Positions 5,267 through 17,387 of a DNA stretch of 64,000 bases are shown piece after piece; the stretch's first letter is position 1; every line of letters starts with the position of its first letter. The notes under the pieces were generated by a model. The model worked only from the letters and a program-made list of their open reading frames with translations, searched no databases and had not been told where the DNA came from. The stretch is from Anoxybacteroides tepidamans (GTDB lineage: Bacteria > Bacillota > Bacilli > Bacillales > Anoxybacillaceae). The stretch is from assembly GCF_014201465.1 (NCBI RefSeq), contig NZ_JACHEP010000016.1, positions 1 to 64,000 on the forward strand, in the 5' to 3' direction. Made by a program: the position numbers and the translations under genes.

Positions 5267-5548
5267 TCAATGACTGATGAAACGAACAAGGAGTGGCCTT
5301 CCTTCTTCATCGGAAACGTTCGATCGTTCCCGCACAGGGATTTTCCGTTGTTGCGATGTAAACAAGCGATGAATTGGAAACAATACAACGCAATCGTATT
5401 GATGATGATCAAATCGTTTAACATCATAAAACGTAACGTGGCCAAGAAATGCTTTATTTTTTCTATATTGATTCATGTAGCATTTCATCGCTACGAAAAA
5501 CGCACTAAACAAAAATAAATACGGCAATAAATCGAAGGGCGTTTCCAT
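5267..5548 (-). CDS. Small membrane-anchored protein of unknown function upstream of yidC
   Basis: This 93-residue protein has one N-terminal hydrophobic helix (FDLLPYLFLFSAFFVAM) followed by a basic, probably cytoplasmic tail. I do not recognise the family. The ATG at 5548 is preferred over an in-frame GTG at 5557 because the AGAGGTGG Shine-Dalgarno is correctly spaced only for the ATG. It is 21 bp upstream of yidC on the same strand. An overlapping plus-strand reading frame has no comparable start and was judged a shadow. Confidence 0.65.
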   Translation of the reverse strand: METPFDLLPYLFLFSAFFVAMKCYMNQYRKNKAFLGHVTFYDVKRFDHHQYDCVVLFPIHRLFTSQQRKIPVRERSNVSDEEGRPLLVRFISH

Positions 5549-6146: not shown

Positions 6147-6264
6147 TTTTCATCACCTGCAACATACTTTTGTTTATTATATCACAAAAAGAATATTTGT
6201 TCGTTTTTTTAACATTGTTTAATTTTTCGTCACCTTTTGACAGATTTGTGACAATCACGCAAAG

Positions 6265-6307
6265 TGTGATGAAGTTAACATCGATTCGTTTTCAATATGT
6301 TTATAGT
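6265..6307 (+). promoter_or_regulatory. narG promoter with FNR-type box at -41.5
   Basis: The dyad TGTGA-N6-TAACA (6265-6280) differs by one base from the FNR/CRP-type consensus TGTGA-N6-TCACA. A -10 element TATAGT lies at 6302-6307, giving an inferred start at 6314 and placing the dyad centre (6272.5) exactly 41.5 bp upstream, the class II activator position. No good -35 hexamer is visible, as expected for an activator-dependent promoter. Confidence 0.7.
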
Positions 6308-6344
6308 AAAATTATACAAATTGATTTTCAAGGAGTGAAACGAT

Positions 6345-9300
6345 GTGAACAAGAAAAAATCTCCGTTTTTCAACCGTTTCAAATATATTCAGCCAATTGA
6401 ACGGTATGCGAACAACCATAGTGAAGTGACGTATGGCGACCGTGATTGGGAAAACGCTTACCGTCGCAGATGGCAGCACGATAAAGTCGTTCGTTCGACA
6501 CATGGGGTCAACTGTACAGGATCTTGCAGCTGGAATATTTACGTGAAAGACGGCATCGTTACGTGGGAAGGCCAACAGCTCGACTATCCGTCGACAGGAC
6601 CTGACATGCCGGATTTTGAACCGCGCGGCTGTCCTCGCGGCGCAAGCTTTTCATGGTACATTTACAGTCCTCTCCGCGTCAAATATCCATATGTACGCGG
6701 CGTGTTGATGGATATGTGGAAAGAAGCATTAAAAGAGCATAAAAATCCGCTTGATGCATGGAAAAGCATTGTCGAAAATCCGGAAAAAGCAAAGCGTTAT
6801 AAACAAGCGCGCGGAAAAGGCGGATTCGTTCGCGCCGAATGGGACGAAGCATTAAAGCTTGTCGCAACTTCTCTTTTATATACGGTCATGAAGTACGGTC
6901 CTGACCGCAACGTTGGGTTTTCGCCGATTCCGGCGATGTCGATGGTCAGCCATGCAGCTGGGGCACGCTTTATGTCATTGATGGGCGGGCCGATTTTAAG
7001 TTTTTACGATTGGTATGCCGACTTGCCTCCTGCTTCGCCGCAAATATGGGGCGATCAAACCGATGTTCCTGAATCGAGCGACTGGTACAACTCCGGCTAC
7101 ATTATTACATGGGGCTCAAACGTTCCGATGACGCGCACACCAGATGCCCACTTCTTAGCGGAAGTGCGCTACAAAGGCACAAAAGTCGTTTCGATCAGCC
7201 CTGATTTCGCAGAATCGACTAAATTTGCGGATGACTGGATGAGCGTTAAACAAGGAACAGACGGTGCCCTCGCGATGGCAATGGGACACGTCATCTTAAA
7301 AGAATTTTACGTTGACCGTCAAGTCGACTACTTTATCCGTTACGCAAAACAATATACCGACTTCCCGTTCCTTGTCACATTGCAAAAGCAAGAAAACGGC
7401 CAATTCGTTGCCGACCGTTTCTTAAACGCGAACGATATCGGCCGCCAAACAACAAACGGCGAATGGAAACCGGCGCTTTGGAACGATGCCACGAATACAT
7501 TTGCGGTTCCAAACGGCACGATAGGTTCTCGCTGGGAAGATAAAGGAAAATGGAACTTGCATTTAGTCGACGAACAAACAGAAGAACCGATCGATCCTCG
7601 CCTTTCGTTGTTAGGAATCGAAGACGAAATTGCAACGGTGCAAATTCCGTACTTCTCTCATGACGGAAATAAAATTCTCGAACGGGCTGTTCCGATGAAA
7701 AAAGTGCAGACAGAAACAGGTGAATTATATGTCACAACCGTCTATGACTTAATTCTTGCCAACTACGGTGTTGACCGTGGCATCGGCGGAACGGTCGCCA
7801 AAACGTTCGACGACCCGATTCCGTTCACTCCGGCATGGCAAGAAGCGATCACCGGCGTCAAACGCAAACTCGCCATCAAAATCGCCCGTGAATTTGCGCA
7901 AAACGCCATCGACACAAACGGTCGGTCGATGATTATCGTCGGAGCTGGAATTAACCACTGGTTTAACTCCGATACAATTTACCGCGCCGTACTGAACCTT
8001 GTCTTATTCGTCGGAGCGCAAGGAGTCAACGGCGGCGGCTGGGCTCACTACGTCGGCCAAGAAAAACTAAGACCAGCAGAAGGATGGCAAAACATCGCCA
8101 CTGCCCGCGACTGGCAAATGCCACCGAAACTGCAAAACGGAACGTCGTTCTTCTATTTCGCAACCGATCAATGGCGCTATGAAGAAACGCCGGTAGGCGA
8201 ACTTGTATCGCCAGTTGTAAAAGAAGCTCGCTACCAACATTATGCGGACTATAACGTGCTTGCTGCTCGCCTTGGCTGGCTGCCGTCTTACCCGACGTTT
8301 GAAAAGAGCGGCATTGACCTTTACAACGAAGCAGTGCAAGCGGGAGCGAAAACACCGGAAGAAGTCGGTAAATATATCGCCACCCAATTGAAAGAGAAAA
8401 AATTGCACTTTGCGATTGAAGACCCAGATAACGAGAAAAACTTCCCGAGAAACTTAATCGTTTGGCGGGCCAACTTAATCTCAAGCTCGGGTAAAGGTCA
8501 CGAATATTTCTTAAAACATTTGCTTGGCACGACAAACGGTCTTATGAACGATGACTACGACAGCTTGCGCCCGGAAGAAATTACATGGCGCGACCAAGCA
8601 CCGGAAGGAAAACTCGATTTACTTATTAACTTAGATTTCCGCATGGCTGGAACGGCTCTTTATTCAGATGTCGTTTTACCTGCTGCTACATGGTATGAAA
8701 AACACGACTTAAGCAGCACAGACATGCATCCGTTTATTCATCCGTTTAATCCGGCGATTTCGGTGCCATGGGAAGCGCGGTCTGACTGGGAAATTTTCAA
8801 ATCGCTCGCCAAAGCGGTGTCGGAGCTGGCGAAAGAACTAAATATGAAACCGATTAAAGAAGTCGTCGCAACGCCGATTCTCCACGATACACCGCAAGAA
8901 TTGGCGCAACCGCTCGGAAAAGTAAAAGATTGGAGCAAAGGCGAATGCGAACCGATTCCAGGAAAGACAATGCCGCAAATCCACGTCGTCGAACGCGATT
9001 ATACGCAGCTGTTCGACAAAATGACAGCACTTGGCCCGAACATCGCCAAACTGCCATACGGCATTAAAGGCATTAACTGGTCGGCGCAAGAAGAATATGA
9101 AAAGTTGAAAAAAGTGTTAGGAACTGTCCAAAAAGCGAGCATCGCCGATGGCTGCCCGGATATGAGCGAAGCGAAAAAAGTCGCAGAAGCAATTTTAACA
9201 TTGTCATCTACCACAAACGGAAAAGTCGCGGTGAAAGCATGGGAAGCACTAGAGAAGAAAACAAGTCTTGAATTAAAAGACTTAGCAAGCGAGCGCGAAG

Positions 9301-10031
9301 AAGAATGCTTCACGTTTGAACAAATTACAGCACAGCCAAAGCCCGTCATCACCTCCCCTGCTTTCAGCGGTTCGGAAAAAGGAGGTAGACGTTATTCACC
9401 GTTTACAACGAACGTCGAGCGGCTCATTCCGTGGCGGACGTTAACAGGACGGCAATCGTTCTATGTCGATCATGAATTAATGCAAGAGTTTGGCGAAACG
9501 ATGGCAACGTTTAAACCGATTTTACAGCATAAGCCGTTCAAAAAAGGCCGTCCGCAAGTAGAAGGAAAAGAAATTACGTTGAACTATTTAACACCGCATA
9601 ATAAATGGTCTGTCCATAGCATGTATTTCGATTCGCAGCCAATGCTTACCCTATTTCGCGGCGGACCGACGATTTGGTTGAACAAAGACGATGCGGAAGA
9701 AGCGGGCATCAAAGATAACGATTGGATCGAATGTTTCAACCGAAACGGTGTCGTCGTGGCACGCGCAGTCGTTTCACATCGGATGCCAAGAGGAATGGCG
9801 TTTATGCACCATGCACAAGATCGTCATATTAACGTGCCTGGTACGAAATTAACAAACAACCGCGGCGGTACGCATAACAGCCCGACACGCATCCATGTCA
9901 AACCGACCCATATGATCGGCGGCTACGCGCAGCTAAGCTACGGCTTTAACTATTACGGCCCGACCGGCAACCAGCGCGACTTGAACGTCATTATCCGCAA
10001 ATTGAAGGAGGTTGATTGGCTTGAAGATTAA
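6345..10031 (+). CDS. narG: Respiratory nitrate reductase alpha subunit NarG
   Basis: This 1228-residue molybdenum catalytic subunit reduces nitrate to nitrite on the inner face of the membrane. The unusual His/Cys ligand set of its Fe-S cluster FS0 is present as H53, C57, C61 and C96. The conserved YNSGYIITWGSNVPMTRTPD stretch follows near residue 247. The start is GTG at 6345 with AAGGAGTG before it; the overlapping ATG at 6343 is followed at once by TGA and cannot be used. It heads narGHJI; the narH start lies inside its 3' end. Confidence 0.97.
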   Translation: MNKKKSPFFNRFKYIQPIERYANNHSEVTYGDRDWENAYRRRWQHDKVVRSTHGVNCTGSCSWNIYVKDGIVTWEGQQLDYPSTGPDMPDFEPRGCPRGASFSWYIYSPLRVKYPYVRGVLMDMWKEALKEHKNPLDAWKSIVENPEKAKRYKQARGKGGFVRAEWDEALKLVATSLLYTVMKYGPDRNVGFSPIPAMSMVSHAAGARFMSLMGGPILSFYDWYADLPPASPQIWGDQTDVPESSDWYNSGYIITWGSNVPMTRTPDAHFLAEVRYKGTKVVSISPDFAESTKFADDWMSVKQGTDGALAMAMGHVILKEFYVDRQVDYFIRYAKQYTDFPFLVTLQKQENGQFVADRFLNANDIGRQTTNGEWKPALWNDATNTFAVPNGTIGSRWEDKGKWNLHLVDEQTEEPIDPRLSLLGIEDEIATVQIPYFSHDGNKILERAVPMKKVQTETGELYVTTVYDLILANYGVDRGIGGTVAKTFDDPIPFTPAWQEAITGVKRKLAIKIAREFAQNAIDTNGRSMIIVGAGINHWFNSDTIYRAVLNLVLFVGAQGVNGGGWAHYVGQEKLRPAEGWQNIATARDWQMPPKLQNGTSFFYFATDQWRYEETPVGELVSPVVKEARYQHYADYNVLAARLGWLPSYPTFEKSGIDLYNEAVQAGAKTPEEVGKYIATQLKEKKLHFAIEDPDNEKNFPRNLIVWRANLISSSGKGHEYFLKHLLGTTNGLMNDDYDSLRPEEITWRDQAPEGKLDLLINLDFRMAGTALYSDVVLPAATWYEKHDLSSTDMHPFIHPFNPAISVPWEARSDWEIFKSLAKAVSELAKELNMKPIKEVVATPILHDTPQELAQPLGKVKDWSKGECEPIPGKTMPQIHVVERDYTQLFDKMTALGPNIAKLPYGIKGINWSAQEEYEKLKKVLGTVQKASIADGCPDMSEAKKVAEAILTLSSTTNGKVAVKAWEALEKKTSLELKDLASEREEECFTFEQITAQPKPVITSPAFSGSEKGGRRYSPFTTNVERLIPWRTLTGRQSFYVDHELMQEFGETMATFKPILQHKPFKKGRPQVEGKEITLNYLTPHNKWSVHSMYFDSQPMLTLFRGGPTIWLNKDDAEEAGIKDNDWIECFNRNGVVVARAVVSHRMPRGMAFMHHAQDRHINVPGTKLTNNRGGTHNSPTRIHVKPTHMIGGYAQLSYGFNYYGPTGNQRDLNVIIRKLKEVDWLED

Positions 10032-11493
10032 AGCGCAAGTCGGCATGGTCATGAATTTAGATAAATGCATCGGCTGCCATACGTGCAGCGTCACATGCAA
10101 AAACACGTGGACGAACCGTCCAGGTGCCGAGTATATGTACTTCAACAACGTCGAAACAAAACCTGGCATCGGCTATCCAAAACAATGGGAAGACCAAGAA
10201 AAATATAAAGGCGGCTGGGAATTAAGAAACGGCGAACTTCATTTAAAATCCGGTTCAAAAGTCAACCGCCTGCTCAACTTGTTTTATAACCCGTACCAAC
10301 CGACGATCGATGATTACTATGAGCCATGGAATTACGATTATGAAACATTAACGAACAGCCCTCAGAAAAAATATCAGCCCGTCGCTCGGCCAAAATCAGC
10401 GATTACCGGCGAATTTATGGAGCTTTCGTGGGGGCCAAACTGGGAAGACGATTTAGCCGGCGCTCACACTACCGGTCTTCAAGACCCGAACGTATTGAAA
10501 ATGGAAGAATCGATTAAAACGGAATTTGAACATGTATTTATGATGTATTTGCCGCGCATTTGCGAACATTGCATCAACCCTCCATGCGTGTCTAGCTGTC
10601 CATCCGGAGCCATGTATAAACGAGACGAAGACGGTATCGTATTAGTGGACCAAAACGCATGCCGCGCATGGCGTTATTGCGTCACGAGCTGTCCGTACAA
10701 AAAAGTGTATTTTAACTGGCAAACAAATAAAGCAGAAAAATGTACGCTCTGCTTCCCGCGCATTGAAGCCGGCATGCCGACGATTTGCTCGGAAACGTGC
10801 GTTGGCCGCATCCGTTATATCGGCGTCATGTTATACGACGCAGACAAAGTAAAAGAAGCGGCTAGCGTAGAAAATGAAAAAGACTTGTATCATGCACAAC
10901 TTGACATTTTCTTAGACCCGCATGACCCAGAAGTGATTGCGAAAGCAAAAGAAGCGGGCATTCCACAAGAGTGGATCGAAGCAGCGCAAAAATCGCCGAT
11001 TTACAAAATGATTATCGATTGGAAAATCGCCCTTCCGTTGCATCCTGAATATCGCACGATGCCAATGGTATGGTATATTCCACCGCTCAGCCCGATCATG
11101 AACATGATCGAAGGCAAAGGAAGCGATGCAACGGAAGATGACATCTTCCCTGCCATCGAGCAAATGCGCATCCCGATCGAATATTTAGCGAACTTATTAA
11201 CCGCGGGCGATCAAACACATATTCGCACAACGTTGAAAAAAATGGCGGTGATGCGCCAATATATGCGCGCGGTGCAAACGAATAAACAACCAAATGTGAA
11301 AGTCATGGAAGAACTCGGTTTAAGCGAGCAAGCTATTCAAGAGATGTATCGTTTACTCGCGATTGCCAAATATCATGACCGTTTCGTCATTCCGGCATCG
11401 CACCGTGAAGAAGTCGCGAATTTATCCGCAGAACAAGGCAGCTGCGGCTTGTCGTTTGCCGGCGGCCCTGGTTCTTGCGGAACACTCTCATAA
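10021..11493 (+). CDS. narH: Respiratory nitrate reductase beta subunit NarH
   Basis: This 490-residue Fe-S subunit carries electrons from NarI to NarG. Four cysteine clusters are visible: CIGCHTCSVTC at residues 16-26, CEHCINPPCVSSC, CRAWRYCVTSC and CTLCFPRIEAGMPTIC. The tryptophan in CRAWRYC replaces a cysteine and marks the [3Fe-4S] site typical of NarH. The start is TTG at 10021, nine bases after AAGGAGG inside the narG end. A TTG at 10012 abuts the Shine-Dalgarno and is unlikely. The C-terminus is Gly/Ser/Cys-rich. Confidence 0.97.
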   Translation: MKIKAQVGMVMNLDKCIGCHTCSVTCKNTWTNRPGAEYMYFNNVETKPGIGYPKQWEDQEKYKGGWELRNGELHLKSGSKVNRLLNLFYNPYQPTIDDYYEPWNYDYETLTNSPQKKYQPVARPKSAITGEFMELSWGPNWEDDLAGAHTTGLQDPNVLKMEESIKTEFEHVFMMYLPRICEHCINPPCVSSCPSGAMYKRDEDGIVLVDQNACRAWRYCVTSCPYKKVYFNWQTNKAEKCTLCFPRIEAGMPTICSETCVGRIRYIGVMLYDADKVKEAASVENEKDLYHAQLDIFLDPHDPEVIAKAKEAGIPQEWIEAAQKSPIYKMIIDWKIALPLHPEYRTMPMVWYIPPLSPIMNMIEGKGSDATEDDIFPAIEQMRIPIEYLANLLTAGDQTHIRTTLKKMAVMRQYMRAVQTNKQPNVKVMEELGLSEQAIQEMYRLLAIAKYHDRFVIPASHREEVANLSAEQGSCGLSFAGGPGSCGTLS

Positions 11494-11505
11494 CGGGGGA
11501 TTGTT

Positions 11506-12054
11506 ATGAACTACGAACAAGCACAAACCGTTTTCCAATGCGCTTCGTATTTGTTATCTTATCCAGATGACGAATGGTATCGCGAGTTAGACGGTTGTTT
11601 ACAAGTGATCGACGATTTGCCACATCGGCAAATCGTCCAAAATATAAAAAAGTTTATTGAATATATTCAAACATTGCCGGCACGTGAACGAATCGAAACA
11701 TACGTCTATACGTTTGATTTCGGCAAAAAAACGAATTTATACGTCACGTATATGAATACAGGCGAACAACGGGAACGCGGGTTAGAGCTGCTTGCGTTGA
11801 AACAACAATATAAAGCCGCAGGATTCGATGTTACGGACAAAGAGTTGCCGGACTATTTGCCATTAATGCTTGAATTCGCTTCACAAGCAGAGCAGCAATA
11901 TGTCGTGCCTATTTTTCAAAAATATTGGCGGAACATCGAAGAAATTCGCAACCAACTGATCGCCAGCGAAAATTACTATACTGCCGTCTTTAACATCATT
12001 TTCATGGCGTTAGAAGAAATCGGTGTGAAACCATTGCCGAAAGGAAGTGTGTGA
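11506..12054 (+). CDS. narJ: Nitrate reductase assembly chaperone NarJ
   Basis: This 182-residue TorD/NarJ-family chaperone holds NarG during molybdenum cofactor insertion and is not part of the final enzyme. The family signs are an ASYLLSYPDDEWY start and an LPDYLPLMLEFAS segment near residue 115. The ATG at 11506 follows GGGGG by six bases and is 12 bp after narH. Its stop overlaps or nearly touches the narI start, which suggests translational coupling. Confidence 0.95.
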   Translation: MNYEQAQTVFQCASYLLSYPDDEWYRELDGCLQVIDDLPHRQIVQNIKKFIEYIQTLPARERIETYVYTFDFGKKTNLYVTYMNTGEQRERGLELLALKQQYKAAGFDVTDKELPDYLPLMLEFASQAEQQYVVPIFQKYWRNIEEIRNQLIASENYYTAVFNIIFMALEEIGVKPLPKGSV

Positions 12055-12056
12055 GC

Positions 12057-12761
12057 ATGTTGAATCAATTTCTTTGGGGCACTCTCCCCTACATCATTTT
12101 GACCATTTTTATCGGCGGTCACATTTATCGCTACAACCATGACCAGTTCGGCTGGACGTCGAAATCAAGCGAAATGTTGGAGAAAAAAGAGTTGCGGCTT
12201 GGTAGCTTGCTGTTTCACTGGGGGATTATTTTCGTGTTCATCGGCCACGTTATGGGCATTTTAATCCCGGGAGGAGTTTATGAAGCGATTGGCATCTCAG
12301 AAGAAACGTATCATTTCATTGCTCTTATCTTTGGGATTCCAGCAGGCATTGCAGCAGCAATCGGTTTACTTATTTTAATTCACCGCCGTCTAACAATTAA
12401 ACGAATCATCATGACGAGCAGCCGTGGTGACTTTCTTGCACTGTTTTTCCTTGCAGTAGTTGTGTTAACTGGATTATCCTCTACATTTTTAAACATTGAT
12501 TCAGATGGATTTGATTATCGTACAACGATTGGTCCATGGTTTAGAAGTTTATTCATGTTCCAACCGGACCCGGCGTATATGGAAAATGTGCCGGTATGGT
12601 TTAAAATTCACATTTTAGCGGCGTTCGGCATTTTTGCGGTATGGCCGTTTACAAGATTAGTTCACGTATTTAGCCTTCCGCTTCGCTACCTCAACCGCAG
12701 CTATGTCGTGTATAGAAAACGAATGCCGAAACAAGCCAACACTTCTAACCAAATTCGATAA
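12057..12761 (+). CDS. narI: Respiratory nitrate reductase gamma subunit NarI (cytochrome b)
   Basis: This 234-residue membrane cytochrome b takes electrons from menaquinol and anchors NarGH. Five hydrophobic helices are visible. Histidines in GGHIYRY, HWGIIFVFIGHVMG and the C-terminal KIHILAAFG/LVHVFS segments fit the two haem b sites. The ATG at 12057, nine bases after AAAGGAAG, is preferred; a GTG at 12051 overlapping the narJ stop is the alternative. A strong terminator follows. Confidence 0.95.
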   Translation: MLNQFLWGTLPYIILTIFIGGHIYRYNHDQFGWTSKSSEMLEKKELRLGSLLFHWGIIFVFIGHVMGILIPGGVYEAIGISEETYHFIALIFGIPAGIAAAIGLLILIHRRLTIKRIIMTSSRGDFLALFFLAVVVLTGLSSTFLNIDSDGFDYRTTIGPWFRSLFMFQPDPAYMENVPVWFKIHILAAFGIFAVWPFTRLVHVFSLPLRYLNRSYVVYRKRMPKQANTSNQIR

Positions 12762-12763
12762 TA

Positions 12764-12811
12764 AAGAAAACGACTCTCCTCATTCCAAGTGAGGAAAGTC
12801 GTTTTCTTTTT
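12764..12811. terminator. Bidirectional terminator between narI and the hemerythrin gene
   Basis: A long stem pairs AAAGAAAACGACT (12764 on) with AGTCGTTTTCTTT and extends through CTCCTCA/TGAGGA, with one internal mismatch and a T-run on the plus side. It serves two converging genes. Confidence 0.9.
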
Positions 12812-13346
12812 AAATCGCCTGAATTTTTTGAGCGAGTTCCTCTTTTTCATCGTTTGACAATAGTTTTTCCGCCATCGGAAATAAGACGTGTTCTTCTTTC
12901 ATAAAATGTTCCGTCAAAATGTGGTACGCATTGATGACGTAAAACGCTAGTTGCTTCGCCGCTTCACGATTGACTGTGCCGGAAAGGTGAGCGGTTTGCT
13001 CTAAAAACGTTGCGATGTTCCGCTTTGCTTGGTCGTGTTCGTATTCCATGACCGCAATCGGTCCTGACGTTCGGCCGATATATTGCGCCATCATCGGAAA
13101 CAATACGCCTTCTTCCCGTTGCGAATGCGGATCTAATTGCTCCAAAAACGATTGGACGTTTTCGCGCAAGGTGAGCAACGCTTCTTTCCAATCCGCTGTT
13201 TCGTCGTTTTGGCCAATTTGTTGCGCCATGTCCACTAATTGTTGTTTTTGTTCGTTTAACGGTCCGTGTTCGTCTTTTAATTGTTGCAGCGCTGGGCATA
13301 GTTGCACATCGCCGTCATGCGCCATCATACAAGGTGACAATTCCAT
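12810..13346 (-). CDS. Hemerythrin-like protein, probable FNR target
   Basis: This 178-residue cytoplasmic protein has the four-helix hemerythrin pattern. Histidine/glutamate ligands sit in LKDEHGPL, DPHSQREEGVLFP, EYEHDQAK and TEHFMKEEHVLFP, the last three being HxxxE-type iron sites. Hemerythrins bind O2 or NO at a di-iron centre. Relatives are linked to Fe-S repair (RIC/YtfE) or NO handling, but this protein has no RIC-type N-terminal domain. The ATG at 13346 follows GGAGGG. It converges on narGHJI and has its own FNR box, so a role in protecting or sensing during nitrate respiration is inferred, not shown. Confidence 0.9.
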   Translation of the reverse strand: MELSPCMMAHDGDVQLCPALQQLKDEHGPLNEQKQQLVDMAQQIGQNDETADWKEALLTLRENVQSFLEQLDPHSQREEGVLFPMMAQYIGRTSGPIAVMEYEHDQAKRNIATFLEQTAHLSGTVNREAAKQLAFYVINAYHILTEHFMKEEHVLFPMAEKLLSNDEKEELAQKIQAI

Positions 13347-13376
13347 TTACTATCCCTCCTTCTCATTCCATCTCTT

Positions 13377-13419
13377 ATTTTACCGCTATGCGTCTACAAG
13401 CGTTGTGATATGAATCACT
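13377..13419 (-). promoter_or_regulatory. Consensus FNR box and -10 of the hemerythrin gene
   Basis: TGTGA-N6-TCACT at 13404-13419 fully matches the Bacillus FNR consensus. On the minus strand a TAAAAT -10 occupies 13382-13377, placing the start at about 13370 and the box centre (13411.5) at -41.5. On the plus strand TATAAT at 13452-13457 precedes the 122-residue gene, but the box would then sit near -52. Confidence 0.75.
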
Positions 13420-13493
13420 TGTTTACTTTTTTCTAAGAAAAGAAGGCTATTTATAATGCTGTTTCATATATATAAAACTAAAGGAGGGATCGT

Positions 13494-13862
13494 ATGTTGC
13501 CAAATTTCGAAGAGTTTTATCCAATCGCCGTTGTTCCAATGGGAGAAAACGATCATGCGACATTTATCGAAACGTTTTCTAATAATAAAGAAACGACCGC
13601 CACCCATTGGCTTATAGCGCTAGAAGGAACGTCGACGAACCTCGGAATATACCACTGGAACGTCATCGTATATCCAGCGAATGATACCACTGTTTTTTAT
13701 TTTGACTACTTGCGCTTTAGTTCCCCACCGCTTTGCTCGTTCCATGAAGCAGCATTGTTAGCGAACGATATTAAAACACAAATAAAAACCGATGAATTTT
13801 TAACAAAAAAACAACTTTTTCTCCCCTTTTTTGCCGCTGATTGTGAAAATACATACATATAA
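13494..13862 (+). CDS. Uncharacterised 122-residue protein
   Basis: I do not recognise this protein. It has no signal peptide or membrane helix and is rich in aromatic residues (HWLIALEGT, GIYHWNVIVYP, VFYFDYLRF). Alternating hydrophobic strands suggest a small beta-rich fold, and it contains two cysteines beyond residue 80. The ATG at 13494 follows AAGGAGGG. It is divergent from the hemerythrin gene across the intergenic region that contains the consensus FNR box, and it converges on the ferredoxin oxidoreductase operon. A link to anaerobic metabolism is suggested only by position. Confidence 0.75.
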   Translation: MLPNFEEFYPIAVVPMGENDHATFIETFSNNKETTATHWLIALEGTSTNLGIYHWNVIVYPANDTTVFYFDYLRFSSPPLCSFHEAALLANDIKTQIKTDEFLTKKQLFLPFFAADCENTYI

Positions 13863-13894
13863 GAAAAAGGCAGGCCCGCAAACGGACCTACCTC
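13862..13894 (-). terminator. Terminator of the 2-oxoacid:ferredoxin oxidoreductase operon
   Basis: On the minus strand AGGTAGGTCCG pairs with CGGGCCTGCCT around a TTTG loop, with two wobble-type pairs, and is followed by TTTTTC. It begins right at the end of the converging 122-residue gene. Confidence 0.85.
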
Positions 13895-13900
13895 TTCACA

Positions 13901-16189
13901 TTATAAATCCGGATGTTCATGTTTCGCTTTTAGACGGCGCCATCTCCGCTCAACTTCTTGTTCAAACTCGAGTAAAAGATCACGATTTTCTTCTTTTAGT
14001 AAATGTTTTGTTTTGCCCATGTATTTTAACCATTCACTTAACGGAATGCGTTTGTTTTTCTCTTCAGGGTCATACGTAATTGTCGTAATGCCGCGCTCGA
14101 CTTCATAGAGCGGGAAGAAGCAAGAGTTGACAGCCGCTTCCATAATTTTTTCCCCGTACCGTTCTTCTGATTTCCAGTTTAACGGGCATGTAATAAGCAA
14201 CTTTCCATACACCGTTCCGACGTTTTGCGCATACCATTGCGCTTTTGCCGCTTTTTTAATTAAATCTTGCGGGAACGCTTCGGTTGCGGTAAATACGTAT
14301 GGAATGTTTGTCGCCGCCATAATTTGCGCCGTATCTTTATGATGGAACGCTTTTCCTTTTTGCGTTTTCCCAACCCCTGTTGTGCTTGTCATATGCCCCA
14401 TTGGCGTCGAATAAGACATTTGCGAACCGGTATTCATATACCCTTCGTTGTCATATTCAAGCATAATCAGTTTATGGTTGCGAAGCGCTGTACCGATGGC
14501 TGACCCCATGCCGATATCCATTCCGCCGTCACCGGTAACCATCACAAATGTGACGTCATCGGATACTTGAATTTCCCCGCGGCGCTTCATCTCGAAAAAC
14601 GCTTCGACCGCTCCTGACAACGTCGCCGGCCCGTTTTGGAACAAGTTGTGAATCATCGTCTGTTTATGTGAACTGTACGGATAAGCAGTTGTCACGACAT
14701 ACGCGCAGCCTGTCTGGAATAACACGACAACATCGCCTTCAATGCCTTTAAAAAACAGCTCTAACCCTGGGAAAATACCGCACCCTGGACAAGCCCCATG
14801 ACCCGGCGCAAGCCGTTTCGGTTTCGCCGTTAATGCGCGCAACGGCGGAACTTTCACTTTTAACCGTTTCGTTTCTTCATCTTCGGTTACTTGAATGAGG
14901 CCTGTTTTAAAGGCATCGCCGTGCATCGGTTCGATCACTCGCTGTAACTTTTGCTCTGGACGGCCCGGCATATGGCCGAAATAGTCGAACGGTTTTTCGG
15001 CGTATCCTTTTTCCATCGCGTCGATCGCCATTTGGAAAAACGCTTCTGCTTCATCCGCATAAAAGTCTTTCCCACCGACACCGAAGACGCGGCTTAACAC
15101 GATCGTTTTGTTTTCCGGATCGCTTTGCAACGCCGATTTTACTTCATGCGTCATATTTGGCCCGTGCGCTCCGTAAGAATCGGCACGTTCCCCGATCAAC
15201 AGCGCTTTCACGTGTTTTAACGCTTGGCGAATTTCTTCCGCTGGGAACGGACGAATAATATTCGGGCTAATAACGCCTGCTTTAATGCCTTTCGCCCGCA
15301 ATTTATCGACTACGTCTTTTGCTGTTTCCGCAGCAGAATTTAATAAAAAGAGCGCTACTTCGGCATCGTCCATTTGATATAAATCAAGCACAGAATACTC
15401 GCGGCCCGATAAAGCGGCGTATTCGCGTGCCACTTGTTTAAATACTTCTCCTGCACGATACAGCGCTTCGGACTGCTGATAGTTGTTATTAATTAAATCG
15501 TCGCCGTTCATATGCGCTCCGATCGTAATCGGATTTTTCGGATCGGCCGCGTTCGGAAATTCCGTTGGGCGCTCGCCGACAAACGCTTGGACAACACTGC
15601 GGTCTTTAAAATATTGTACTTTTCGTTTTTGGTGAGACGTAAAGAAGCCATCGTAAGCAACGATAACCGGCAGACGGACGTCCGCATGCTCCGCGATTTT
15701 CAATGCCATAATGTTCATATCATAGACGGCTTGCGGTGTGCGTGCCAGCAAAATGACCCAACCGGTGTTTAGCGCAAAATAAAGATCGGAATGGTCTCCG
15801 CGAATATCAAGCGGCCCACTAATCGAGCGAGTGACTAAGTTCATGACCATCGGAAACCGCGTTCCTGATTGCACCGGCAGCTGCTCGAGCATATACATGA
15901 GCCCGTTGGCGCTTGTCGCATTAAACACGCGCGCGCCCATGACAGATGCTCCGTAACAAATGCCGGCCGAGCCGTGCTCGCCATCAGCGGCAATAAGTTG
16001 AATATGATGCTCGCCGCGCGTTTTCATTTGGTCCAACAGCTGGGCAATTTCAGTAGAAGGTGTAATTGGGAAATAGCCCATAATATGATAGTTAATTTGT
16101 GCAGCCGCCAATGCCGCCATTTCGTTTCCTGATTCAAATGTTGTGACTTGTTCGGCTTTTGTTGTCACTTTTTCTTCTAGCATCGCCAT
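13901..16189 (-). CDS. 2-oxoacid:ferredoxin oxidoreductase, fused alpha-beta subunit
   Basis: This 762-residue protein joins two subunits. Residues ~10-400 are the alpha (pyrimidine-binding and transketolase-C-like) part with MGYFPITPSTEIAQ and a GERADSYGAHGPNM segment. Residues ~480-700 are the beta, thiamine-diphosphate part with HGACPGCGIFPGLE and the TPP motif GDGGMDIGMGS...NEGYMNTG. It oxidatively decarboxylates a 2-oxoacid to its acyl-CoA with reduction of ferredoxin; pyruvate or a branched-chain acid is possible. The ATG at 16189 overlaps the stop of the gamma-delta gene (TGATG). A GGGGGG tract precedes it. An upstream extension has no Shine-Dalgarno and overlaps the neighbour out of frame. 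Confidence 0.9.
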   Translation of the reverse strand: MAMLEEKVTTKAEQVTTFESGNEMAALAAAQINYHIMGYFPITPSTEIAQLLDQMKTRGEHHIQLIAADGEHGSAGICYGASVMGARVFNATSANGLMYMLEQLPVQSGTRFPMVMNLVTRSISGPLDIRGDHSDLYFALNTGWVILLARTPQAVYDMNIMALKIAEHADVRLPVIVAYDGFFTSHQKRKVQYFKDRSVVQAFVGERPTEFPNAADPKNPITIGAHMNGDDLINNNYQQSEALYRAGEVFKQVAREYAALSGREYSVLDLYQMDDAEVALFLLNSAAETAKDVVDKLRAKGIKAGVISPNIIRPFPAEEIRQALKHVKALLIGERADSYGAHGPNMTHEVKSALQSDPENKTIVLSRVFGVGGKDFYADEAEAFFQMAIDAMEKGYAEKPFDYFGHMPGRPEQKLQRVIEPMHGDAFKTGLIQVTEDEETKRLKVKVPPLRALTAKPKRLAPGHGACPGCGIFPGLELFFKGIEGDVVVLFQTGCAYVVTTAYPYSSHKQTMIHNLFQNGPATLSGAVEAFFEMKRRGEIQVSDDVTFVMVTGDGGMDIGMGSAIGTALRNHKLIMLEYDNEGYMNTGSQMSYSTPMGHMTSTTGVGKTQKGKAFHHKDTAQIMAATNIPYVFTATEAFPQDLIKKAAKAQWYAQNVGTVYGKLLITCPLNWKSEERYGEKIMEAAVNSCFFPLYEVERGITTITYDPEEKNKRIPLSEWLKYMGKTKHLLKEENRDLLLEFEQEVERRWRRLKAKHEHPDL

Positions 16190-17202
16190 CAATATATCCC
16201 CCCTGCCACGAATGGGAATTTTTGTTTCACCCGATGTTGTTCCGCAAATCCGATTTGTTCTCTTTCCGCCGTTAGCGCGGAAGTTGGACAGGCTTCGACA
16301 CATTTTAAACAGCCTTTGCAATATTGATAGTCAATCCCTCGCAAAAACATTTGTTTGCGTCCCTTTTTGTCTTCCCCTTCTTCCCAAACAAAGCAAAAAT
16401 CTGGACAAACAGTATCACAGGCGACGCAATGAATGCATTTTTCCTCTTCCCATTTCGGCAAAAATCCTTGGCGCGAGCCGCTTAAATCTTTCAAAATGCT
16501 ATTGGCGTTAGCGGAGATGATACCGCCGATTTCTTGCGTTTCATAACCTAAAAGCGGCTCTGGGCGTGAAAACGTTTTTCCGCGCGCAGATTCAGGGGCT
16601 TCATACGTTTTAAAACGAACTTCGTGATAGCCTCTTTCAAACGTGCGAATATTTGATTCGACTAAGTGAGGGTATTTTTTTTCAAACGTTTTGCGAATGA
16701 CTTGTTTCATTGCTTCCGCATCTAGGAAATCACAGACGCGGAATAGCGCACCAAGCATCGCCGTATTGACTTTCGTTTTTTCTTCAACGGCAATACCAAG
16801 CGCATCAACAACGGCAAGCGTTCCGTATTCTAAACGCAAATCGCGCTTAATTTCATCAAACTCTCTTGTCGAGTTGACTAAAACAATGCCATCTGGTGCT
16901 AAACCGCTTACGACATCGACCATTTTATAAAGCGCTTCGTGAAATACGCCGATGACGTGCGGTTCTTCAATCGGGCTATGGGCGCGAATTTCTACGTCTG
17001 GGTCACAGAAACGGATAAAACTTTTCACTGGCGATCCTTTTTTCTCGGAACCATAAGAAGAAAAGTTAGAACCGTTCAAGCCAAGCCCTAATACACCTGC
17101 CTCCGTAAGCATTTTTCCTGCTAAATTCGCCCCGAGCCCCCCAATCGATTCAAGGCGAATTTCAAAAAAACCGAGTTCATTTTTTTTCGGTAAAATCGAC
17201 AT
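16189..17202 (-). CDS. 2-oxoacid:ferredoxin oxidoreductase, fused gamma-delta subunit
   Basis: This 337-residue partner combines the gamma domain (residues ~10-185, with RLESIGGLGANLAGKML and SYGSEKKGSPVKSFIRF) and a C-terminal delta ferredoxin domain with two [4Fe-4S] motifs, CIHCVACDTVCPDFC and CKGCLKCVEACP. It passes electrons from the thiamine site to external ferredoxin. The ATG at 17202 follows GGGGGG. A start at 17247 is rejected because it would precede the inferred transcription start at 17241. It is first in a two-gene operon with its stop overlapping the next start. Confidence 0.9.
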   Translation of the reverse strand: MSILPKKNELGFFEIRLESIGGLGANLAGKMLTEAGVLGLGLNGSNFSSYGSEKKGSPVKSFIRFCDPDVEIRAHSPIEEPHVIGVFHEALYKMVDVVSGLAPDGIVLVNSTREFDEIKRDLRLEYGTLAVVDALGIAVEEKTKVNTAMLGALFRVCDFLDAEAMKQVIRKTFEKKYPHLVESNIRTFERGYHEVRFKTYEAPESARGKTFSRPEPLLGYETQEIGGIISANANSILKDLSGSRQGFLPKWEEEKCIHCVACDTVCPDFCFVWEEGEDKKGRKQMFLRGIDYQYCKGCLKCVEACPTSALTAEREQIGFAEQHRVKQKFPFVAGGIY

Positions 17203-17247
17203 GTTATCCCCCCTATGGAATAGAACTTGTATGCCCCCCTTTTTCAC

Positions 17248-17290
17248 ATTTTAATAAAAAAACCGTAAAAAAGATGTGACAAAAATCAAA
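17248..17290 (-). promoter_or_regulatory. Candidate FNR-dependent promoter of the ferredoxin oxidoreductase operon
   Basis: Read on the minus strand, TTTGA-N6-TCACA (17290-17275) is one base from the FNR consensus, and TAAAAT at 17253-17248 is a -10 box. The inferred start is 17241 and the dyad centre (17282.5) again falls at -41.5. The match is weaker than at the hemerythrin gene; the shared geometry is the main support. Confidence 0.55.
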
Positions 17291-17387
17291 CATTTAGAAT
17301 TTTATTAATAGTACACTAGAAAAAATCTCTTCATTTTATAAGGATTTTGATTATATAACAGAGCTTTTGTTGTATTATAACAGATTT

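Follow-up and report, generated by a model that had tools for sequence, protein, structure and literature searches.

The 64,000-nucleotide stretch of Anoxybacteroides tepidamans DNA analysed here (positions 1 to 64,000 of contig NZ_JACHEP010000016.1), termed the window, carries the nitrate reductase operon narGHJI, a gene for a hemerythrin HHE-domain protein and two genes for a 2-oxoacid:ferredoxin oxidoreductase (POR), and the promoter regions of these three units are the subject of this analysis. Each contains a dyad of the TGTGA-N6-TCACA type, which is the consensus given for Bacillus subtilis Fnr in Table 1 of PMC8151001, followed by a -10 element that begins 21 nt after the dyad (Table 1). 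When the transcription start (+1) is placed 7 nt past the last -10 base, that is, after a 6-nt gap, the dyad centres fall at a predicted -41.5. An initial annotation of this DNA had located all three dyads and -10 elements exactly, and its spacing of -41.5 agrees with the +21 position of the -10 elements, the starts themselves being predicted. It was also right that the narG and POR dyads each differ from the consensus by one base. However, the hemerythrin dyad, which it had called a full match, likewise carries one mismatch (its plus strand ends in TCACT), and the block that it put at 12 kb spans 11 kb.

Genes of the window

The two POR genes are read from the minus strand (17202-13901), with the gamma-delta fusion first and the alpha-beta fusion second, and hemD lies upstream on the same strand. 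This orientation of hemD led us to reject the idea that the POR dyad serves a divergent promoter, even though positions 17275-17317 of the plus strand also fit the pattern. The start listed for the gamma-delta open reading frame, 17247, is upstream of the predicted transcript start at 17241. The true alpha-beta start probably lies inside its open reading frame, because the POR_N domain begins only at residue 72; stops in the alpha-beta matches of some genomes may precede that start, and a reading of them as decay was set aside. Near residue 605 the alpha-beta gene is split in two relatives, into two frames in one (G004:C114:16463-18890) and across two contigs in the other (G003).

The domains POR_N, PFOR_II, TPP_enzyme_C, POR gamma and 4Fe-4S identify the enzyme as a 2-oxoacid:ferredoxin oxidoreductase, and the alpha-beta protein scores under every listed NCBIfam cut-off. 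Its alpha and beta regions match chains of pyruvate:ferredoxin oxidoreductase (9bt4, 1b0p) and of oxalate oxidoreductase (5c4i). The POR domains are shared with these enzymes, whereas here alpha with beta and gamma with delta are fused into two proteins, and pyruvate is a putative substrate only. By POR, the nearest named relative among the matches listed is A. voinovskiensis (94% identity).

Table 1. Genes and promoter elements of the three units, with positions counted from the first base of the window.
Feature	Position	Strand	Remark
narG, nitrate reductase alpha, GTG start	6345..10031	+	assigned by its place before narHJI and a family search
narH, narJ, narI	after narG, to 12761	+	narGHJI = 6345-12761
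Hemerythrin HHE-domain protein, 178 aa	12810..13346	-	Pfam PF01814
POR alpha-beta fusion, open reading frame as listed	13901..16321	-	POR_N from residue 72
POR gamma-delta fusion	16189..17202	-	ATG at 17202; listed open reading frame starts at 17247
Fnr-type dyad of narGHJI, TGTGATGAAGTTAACA	6265..6280	+	centre at predicted -41.5
narG -10, TATAGT	6302..6307	+	predicted start 6314
Fnr-type dyad of hemerythrin gene, AGTGATTCATATCACA	13404..13419	-	one mismatch
Hemerythrin -10, TAAAAT	13377..13382	-	predicted start 13370
Fnr-type dyad of POR, TTTGATTTTTGTCACA	17275..17290	-	one mismatch
POR -10, TAAAAT	17248..17253	-	predicted start 17241
ResD-like element upstream of narG Fnr site	6236..6256	+	ResD consensus from PMC8151001, Table 1
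Box B3, TGTACTA	17309..17315	-	TGTWHYA box at the same place in 50/66 POR promoters
Box B2, TGTTATATAATC	17349..17360	-	22 bp from B1
Box B1, TGTTATAATACA	17371..17382	-	B1-B2 pair is the only exact tandem-pattern match in the genome

Spacing and conservation of the dyads

Dyads without a -10 element are weak evidence. The window holds 4 with at most one mismatch, against a shuffle mean of 1.4, a number equalled or exceeded in 6 of 100 shuffles; when two mismatches are allowed it holds 17, fewer than the 24 expected. Genome-wide, 80 dyads stand against 48 for a reversed control pattern; when dyad and -10 element are sought together, 84 places stand against 46 for the reversed control (up to two mismatches over site and -10, both strands). 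In this composite, the -10 element is a TANNNT at exactly +21. The near-background counts of bare dyads are what would be expected if chance dyads in AT-rich intergenic DNA had been joined to -10 elements picked to fit. However, the window contains 4 composites (the three promoters and the POR dyad in its other orientation) against a simulated mean of 0.087, and 0 of 300 simulated windows reach 3. This rate, and the conservation of the fixed spacing in divergent genera described below, contradict chance, which we consider scarcely credible; the initial claim that the identical spacings exceed chance is upheld on both grounds, with conservation the decisive one.

For this comparison, upstream regions were taken from 41 genomes of the family and, for POR, additionally from named loci, of which the top 80 out of 589 were used. 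After removal of identical regions, regions that were too short and fragment matches (L021, L104 and L105 for hemerythrin, L151 for POR), 36 narG, 61 hemerythrin and 95 POR matches gave 28, 39 and 88 regions, respectively. All 28 narG, 33 of the 39 hemerythrin and 65 of the 88 POR regions contain a dyad that departs from the consensus by one base or none. By comparison, the best of 29 permuted half-site controls finds 2 regions per set, and 4, 7 and 5 regions, respectively, fit the next-best spacer. The -10 element begins at exactly +21 in 28/28 narG regions and at 65/65 POR sites with at most one mismatch, while the 33 hemerythrin regions with such a dyad have it at +21 (21 regions) or +22 (11 regions). 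When up to two mismatches are permitted, with TTTGA allowed as the far half and TANNNT at +21 for POR, the composite is found in 28/28 narG, 37/39 hemerythrin (spacing 21 or 22) and 86/88 POR regions, although the latter two counts lean towards the composite because they were made by searching for it. The same dyad and -10 spacing is thus present family-wide and, for POR, also in many other Bacillaceae genera. At POR the site is kept both beside nar (gene maps of L106 and L110) and in other surroundings (L111, L118, L173), and therefore travels with the gene. The comparison makes the case for the three sites a strong one.

The two half-sites are not equally conserved. The promoter-side TCACA of POR is nearly invariant and its far half is conserved in an off-consensus form (TTTGA, TTTAA, TATAA); narG shows the reverse, with an invariant TGTGA and a near half that is often TAACA.

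Within the A. tepidamans genome, 17 composites deviate from the pattern by no more than one base. Three of them are perfect matches, situated at moaA, at an fnr paralogue and at an MFS gene that its context suggests is narK-like. Among the 14 with one mismatch, four belong to the window itself; others are found near MobA-type and moeA genes, inside the open reading frame of an FAD enzyme adjoining a class V aminotransferase gene, upstream of a Crp/Fnr gene that encodes no Cys tail (P0001; composite at C11:86546), at C7:10182 and C17:27578, and at a COX2/COX1 pair (one about 330 bp upstream, L014:4043-4085, and one inside). The upstream COX2/COX1 composite may mark a possible Fnr-controlled oxidase.

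Fnr and other candidate regulators

The narG, hemerythrin and POR sites are best explained as Fnr-activated class II promoters, POR included, a reading that we hold with a probability of roughly 0.85. In the proposed mechanism, Fnr (P0002, C17:61531-62211, of the [4Fe-4S] type to judge by its tail) would bind the dyad 41.5 bp before the start when oxygen is lacking, contact RNA polymerase, and jointly switch on nitrate reductase, the hemerythrin-like protein and a pyruvate-type 2-oxoacid:ferredoxin oxidoreductase. The shared dyad and -10 spacing, an intact Fnr and the zero-mismatch composites thus support, by inference, the initial proposal of one Fnr regulon that includes a ferredoxin-reducing enzyme; what that proposal missed is a second conserved element at POR and a ResD-like one at narG, both treated below.

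Three Crp/Fnr proteins are encoded in the A. tepidamans genome. P0002 is intact and has the C-x2-C-x4-C tail of an Fe-S type Fnr, P0001 is without a Cys tail, and the third, the fnr paralogue beside moaA (L011:15423-16220, genome C11), contains an in-frame TAA in this assembly; copies of it without stops occur in relatives. The same C-x2-C-x4-C tail is described for Bacillus Fnr in PMC3520743. Among the loci examined, 29 of 30 Fnr proteins possess it, the exception (L190) being a shortened match. Fnr-like matches at E 1e-30 are present in 37 of the 41 family genomes, and narG and full-length POR are likewise missing from the four genomes without one (G002, G005, G034, G039). Each of the 28 narG-bearing genomes of the family, G030 included, has an Fnr match. 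Outside the family, an Fnr-like match at 1e-20, counted without regard to tails, was obtained in 49 of 50 POR genomes (50 of the 80 loci), the best match in G057 being only 41% identical. In four genomes of genus g2 (G010, G011, G013, G014) and in G040, fnr, the hemerythrin gene and narG are adjacent (G010:C1:212222-215170 and equivalents).

Several observations weigh against Fnr as the activator of all three units. Of the POR regions, 23 of 88 have no one-mismatch site, and 21 of these pass only at the relaxed limit; the composite is missing even there in POR regions L180 and L181 and hemerythrin regions L082 and L093. The distal POR half may be a weak or a different half-site, because it is mostly TTTGA, TTTAA or TATAA and not TGTGA. 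POR paralogues in G079 and G067 are without a composite at one mismatch or fewer, and some one-mismatch composites of the A. tepidamans genome do not precede a gene expected for Fnr. G030, which has narG and its site, shows an Fnr match broken into two pieces and containing a stop; G086 has an atypical POR site (L174) and no Fnr match. Finally, Fnr binding, activation, oxygen dependence, the identity of the binder and the +1 positions are all deduced from sequence, in contrast to the positions, spacing, conservation and presence of Fnr, which were observed directly.

The activator could alternatively be another Crp/Fnr paralogue, namely P0001, a Cys-less and Dnr- or ArcR-like protein, acting in a cascade below Fnr. 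Such a protein could read the same motif, as S. aureus ArcR reads a Crp-like one (PMC2883068), and the P0001 gene itself has a one-mismatch composite upstream. However, an Fnr match accompanies narG in all 28 family genomes, albeit broken in G030, and we judge the cascade unlikely. Still less probable, to the point of being very remote, is occupation of the dyads by Rex, a repressor that senses NADH and reads a similar dyad. The Rex consensus TTGTGAAW4TTCACAA does contain TGTGA-N6-TCACA, and the protein table for the S. aureus Rex modulon includes the alpha subunit of pyruvate ferredoxin oxidoreductase (both from PMC2883068). However, the base after TGTGA, position 6 of that dyad and an A in the Rex operator, is A in 0% of 24 narG, 0% of 34 hemerythrin and 2% of 82 POR unique sites; a T precedes TCACA in 0% of the hemerythrin and 1% of the POR sites, though in 75% of those of narG. 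Moreover, the constant distance from dyad to -10 element suits an activator.

Fnr activation of the three units is most readily compared with two known systems. Control of narG by Fnr is established biology, and the B. subtilis Fnr regulon, reportedly described by Reents and colleagues in 2006, is said to include narGHJI as a target. The genes described here resemble that regulon in their TGTGA-N6-TCACA dyads, in narGHJI and in an Fnr with a C-terminal Cys tail; they differ in the addition of a ferredoxin oxidoreductase and a hemerythrin gene, and in the conserved off-consensus distal half of the POR site. B. subtilis is not known to have a ferredoxin oxidoreductase. In Escherichia coli, class II promoters dependent on CRP or FNR have the activator centred at -41.5 and a good -10 element, as is the case here, whereas the half-sites in the window are CRP-like and not the TTGAT of E. 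coli FNR, whose Fe-S ligands are also at the other end of the protein from those of Bacillus-type Fnr. The E. coli-type TTGAT-N4-ATCAA occurs 20 times genome-wide; its two occurrences in the window, at 5399 and 15374, both lie away from the three promoters.

In the literature searched, hemerythrin and POR were not found as conserved Fnr targets in Bacillaceae, and no paper linking POR, Fnr and Bacillaceae was found by title or by the beginning of its abstract. Fnr control of POR would bring a low-potential, ferredoxin-reducing enzyme into the anaerobic programme of many Bacillaceae that are usually deemed aerobes or nitrate respirers, and raises the question of what consumes the reduced ferredoxin.

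Across 11 non-redundant narG promoters, the block directly upstream of the dyad hardly varies. The ResD consensus (PMC8151001, Table 1) is matched there with at most two mismatches in 26 of 28 narG regions, compared with 4 of 140 shuffles. The excess at POR is smaller, 27/88 against 20/440 shuffles, or 14/66 against 24/330 for non-redundant regions, and 10 of the matches in these 14 regions coincide in position and overlie the Fnr dyad. They are for this reason read as bases of the Fnr dyad, an action of ResD at POR being possible. At hemerythrin, 4/39 regions match, against 4/195 shuffles.

Additional boxes upstream of POR

The second conserved element at POR consists of three boxes upstream of the Fnr dyad, which were counted in 66 promoters retained after filtering at 80% identity (L185 being anchored on a tied, weaker dyad). 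A pair of TGTWHYA boxes 21-23 bp apart, mostly 22 bp, is present in 51 of the 66 (shuffle mean 0.09, maximum 2). A third such box occupies positions -25 to -20 relative to the dyad, nearer the promoter, in 50 of them (300 shuffle rounds: mean 2.6, maximum 9); 43 promoters have both the pair and the third box. Since TGTWHYA was chosen after these promoters had been viewed, the counts are descriptive and are no test of a hypothesis framed beforehand. The distance from pair to third box is 43-45 (6 cases), 54-57 (5 cases) or 64-69 bp (32 cases), i.e. it changes in steps of about one helical turn. The pair is absent from the 27 narG and 39 hemerythrin regions scanned. As promoter elements of their own, B1 and B2 were rejected as extended -10 promoters, given that B1 has a conserved ACA arm preceded by two variable bases; ResD was rejected as reader of the boxes, its consensus being unlike TGTTATA.

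Searches of whole genomes for the pair provide a more independent test. A stricter pair pattern was found in 33 of 43 genomes with POR and in 0 of 4 without, and its reversed control in none of the 47; 10 POR genomes are without the stricter pair at one mismatch. In A. tepidamans, the pair pattern with up to two mismatches occurs at 17 places against 21 for the reversed control, and the single exact match is at POR. The stricter pair occupies 37 places, and all 30 loci returned contain POR gamma. Of the remaining 7 places, one is at a POR paralogue (L286, G067:C2), three (G070, G044:C45, G064) lie 1.1-1.2 kb before a mapped POR match by coordinates, and three (L285, L287, L288) lie between a gene for an IclR-family regulator and a gene for L-lactate permease, the only setting away from POR in which the pair was found in the 47 genomes. 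The POR places in G079 and G067:C2 are second copies without a one-mismatch Fnr composite; these second operons (L284 and L286), both outside the family, have the box pair and no close Fnr site.

At L285, L287 and L288 the pair takes the form of two TGTTATATAACA-type palindromes 22 bp apart, presumably IclR operators. The three look like one orthologous locus and therefore constitute one independent hint. This presumed double operator shares with POR the two TGTTATA-type boxes 22 bp apart; in contrast, the POR pair is far upstream and is accompanied by a third box and an Fnr site. An IclR-family protein of A. tepidamans (L289) is 39% identical to that of L288, in a different setting, by eye one of sugar-acid metabolism genes.

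It is likely, on the pattern of these boxes, that POR has a two-signal promoter. A second regulator would act through the three boxes, which lie on one helix face (22 bp between B1 and B2, and about 4, 5 or 6 turns from B2 to B3), and it is possibly, by a weaker inference, of IclR type and responsive to lactate, pyruvate or another organic acid. The full dual-input arrangement, in which Fnr at -41.5 reports the lack of oxygen and an IclR-family protein on B1-B3 reports the organic acid, probably through a loop that brings it to the complex of Fnr and RNA polymerase, is a tentative proposal that we put at somewhat short of even odds; ferredoxin would then be reduced only when anoxia and substrate coincide. 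The POR promoter is clearly delimited and conserved, and the regulator behind its probable second input is open to a direct search.

The 80 loci and the window were also examined for a conserved regulator gene next to POR, and none was taken as reader of the boxes. A sensor kinase, a Spo0E-like gene and ETF (electron-transfer-flavoprotein) or Fix-type genes recur there, each typed from one or two examples; these we take to reflect gene order shared with B. subtilis and not a reader of the boxes. In many of the 80 loci (e.g. L111, L118), ETF and Fix-type genes, with domains typed on examples, occur no more than 10 kb from POR, and in 23 of the 80 POR is near lut-type lactate genes. Two records titled Chryseobacterium and Pseudomonas (L125, L143) carry POR loci of Bacillaceae type and are probably mislabelled.

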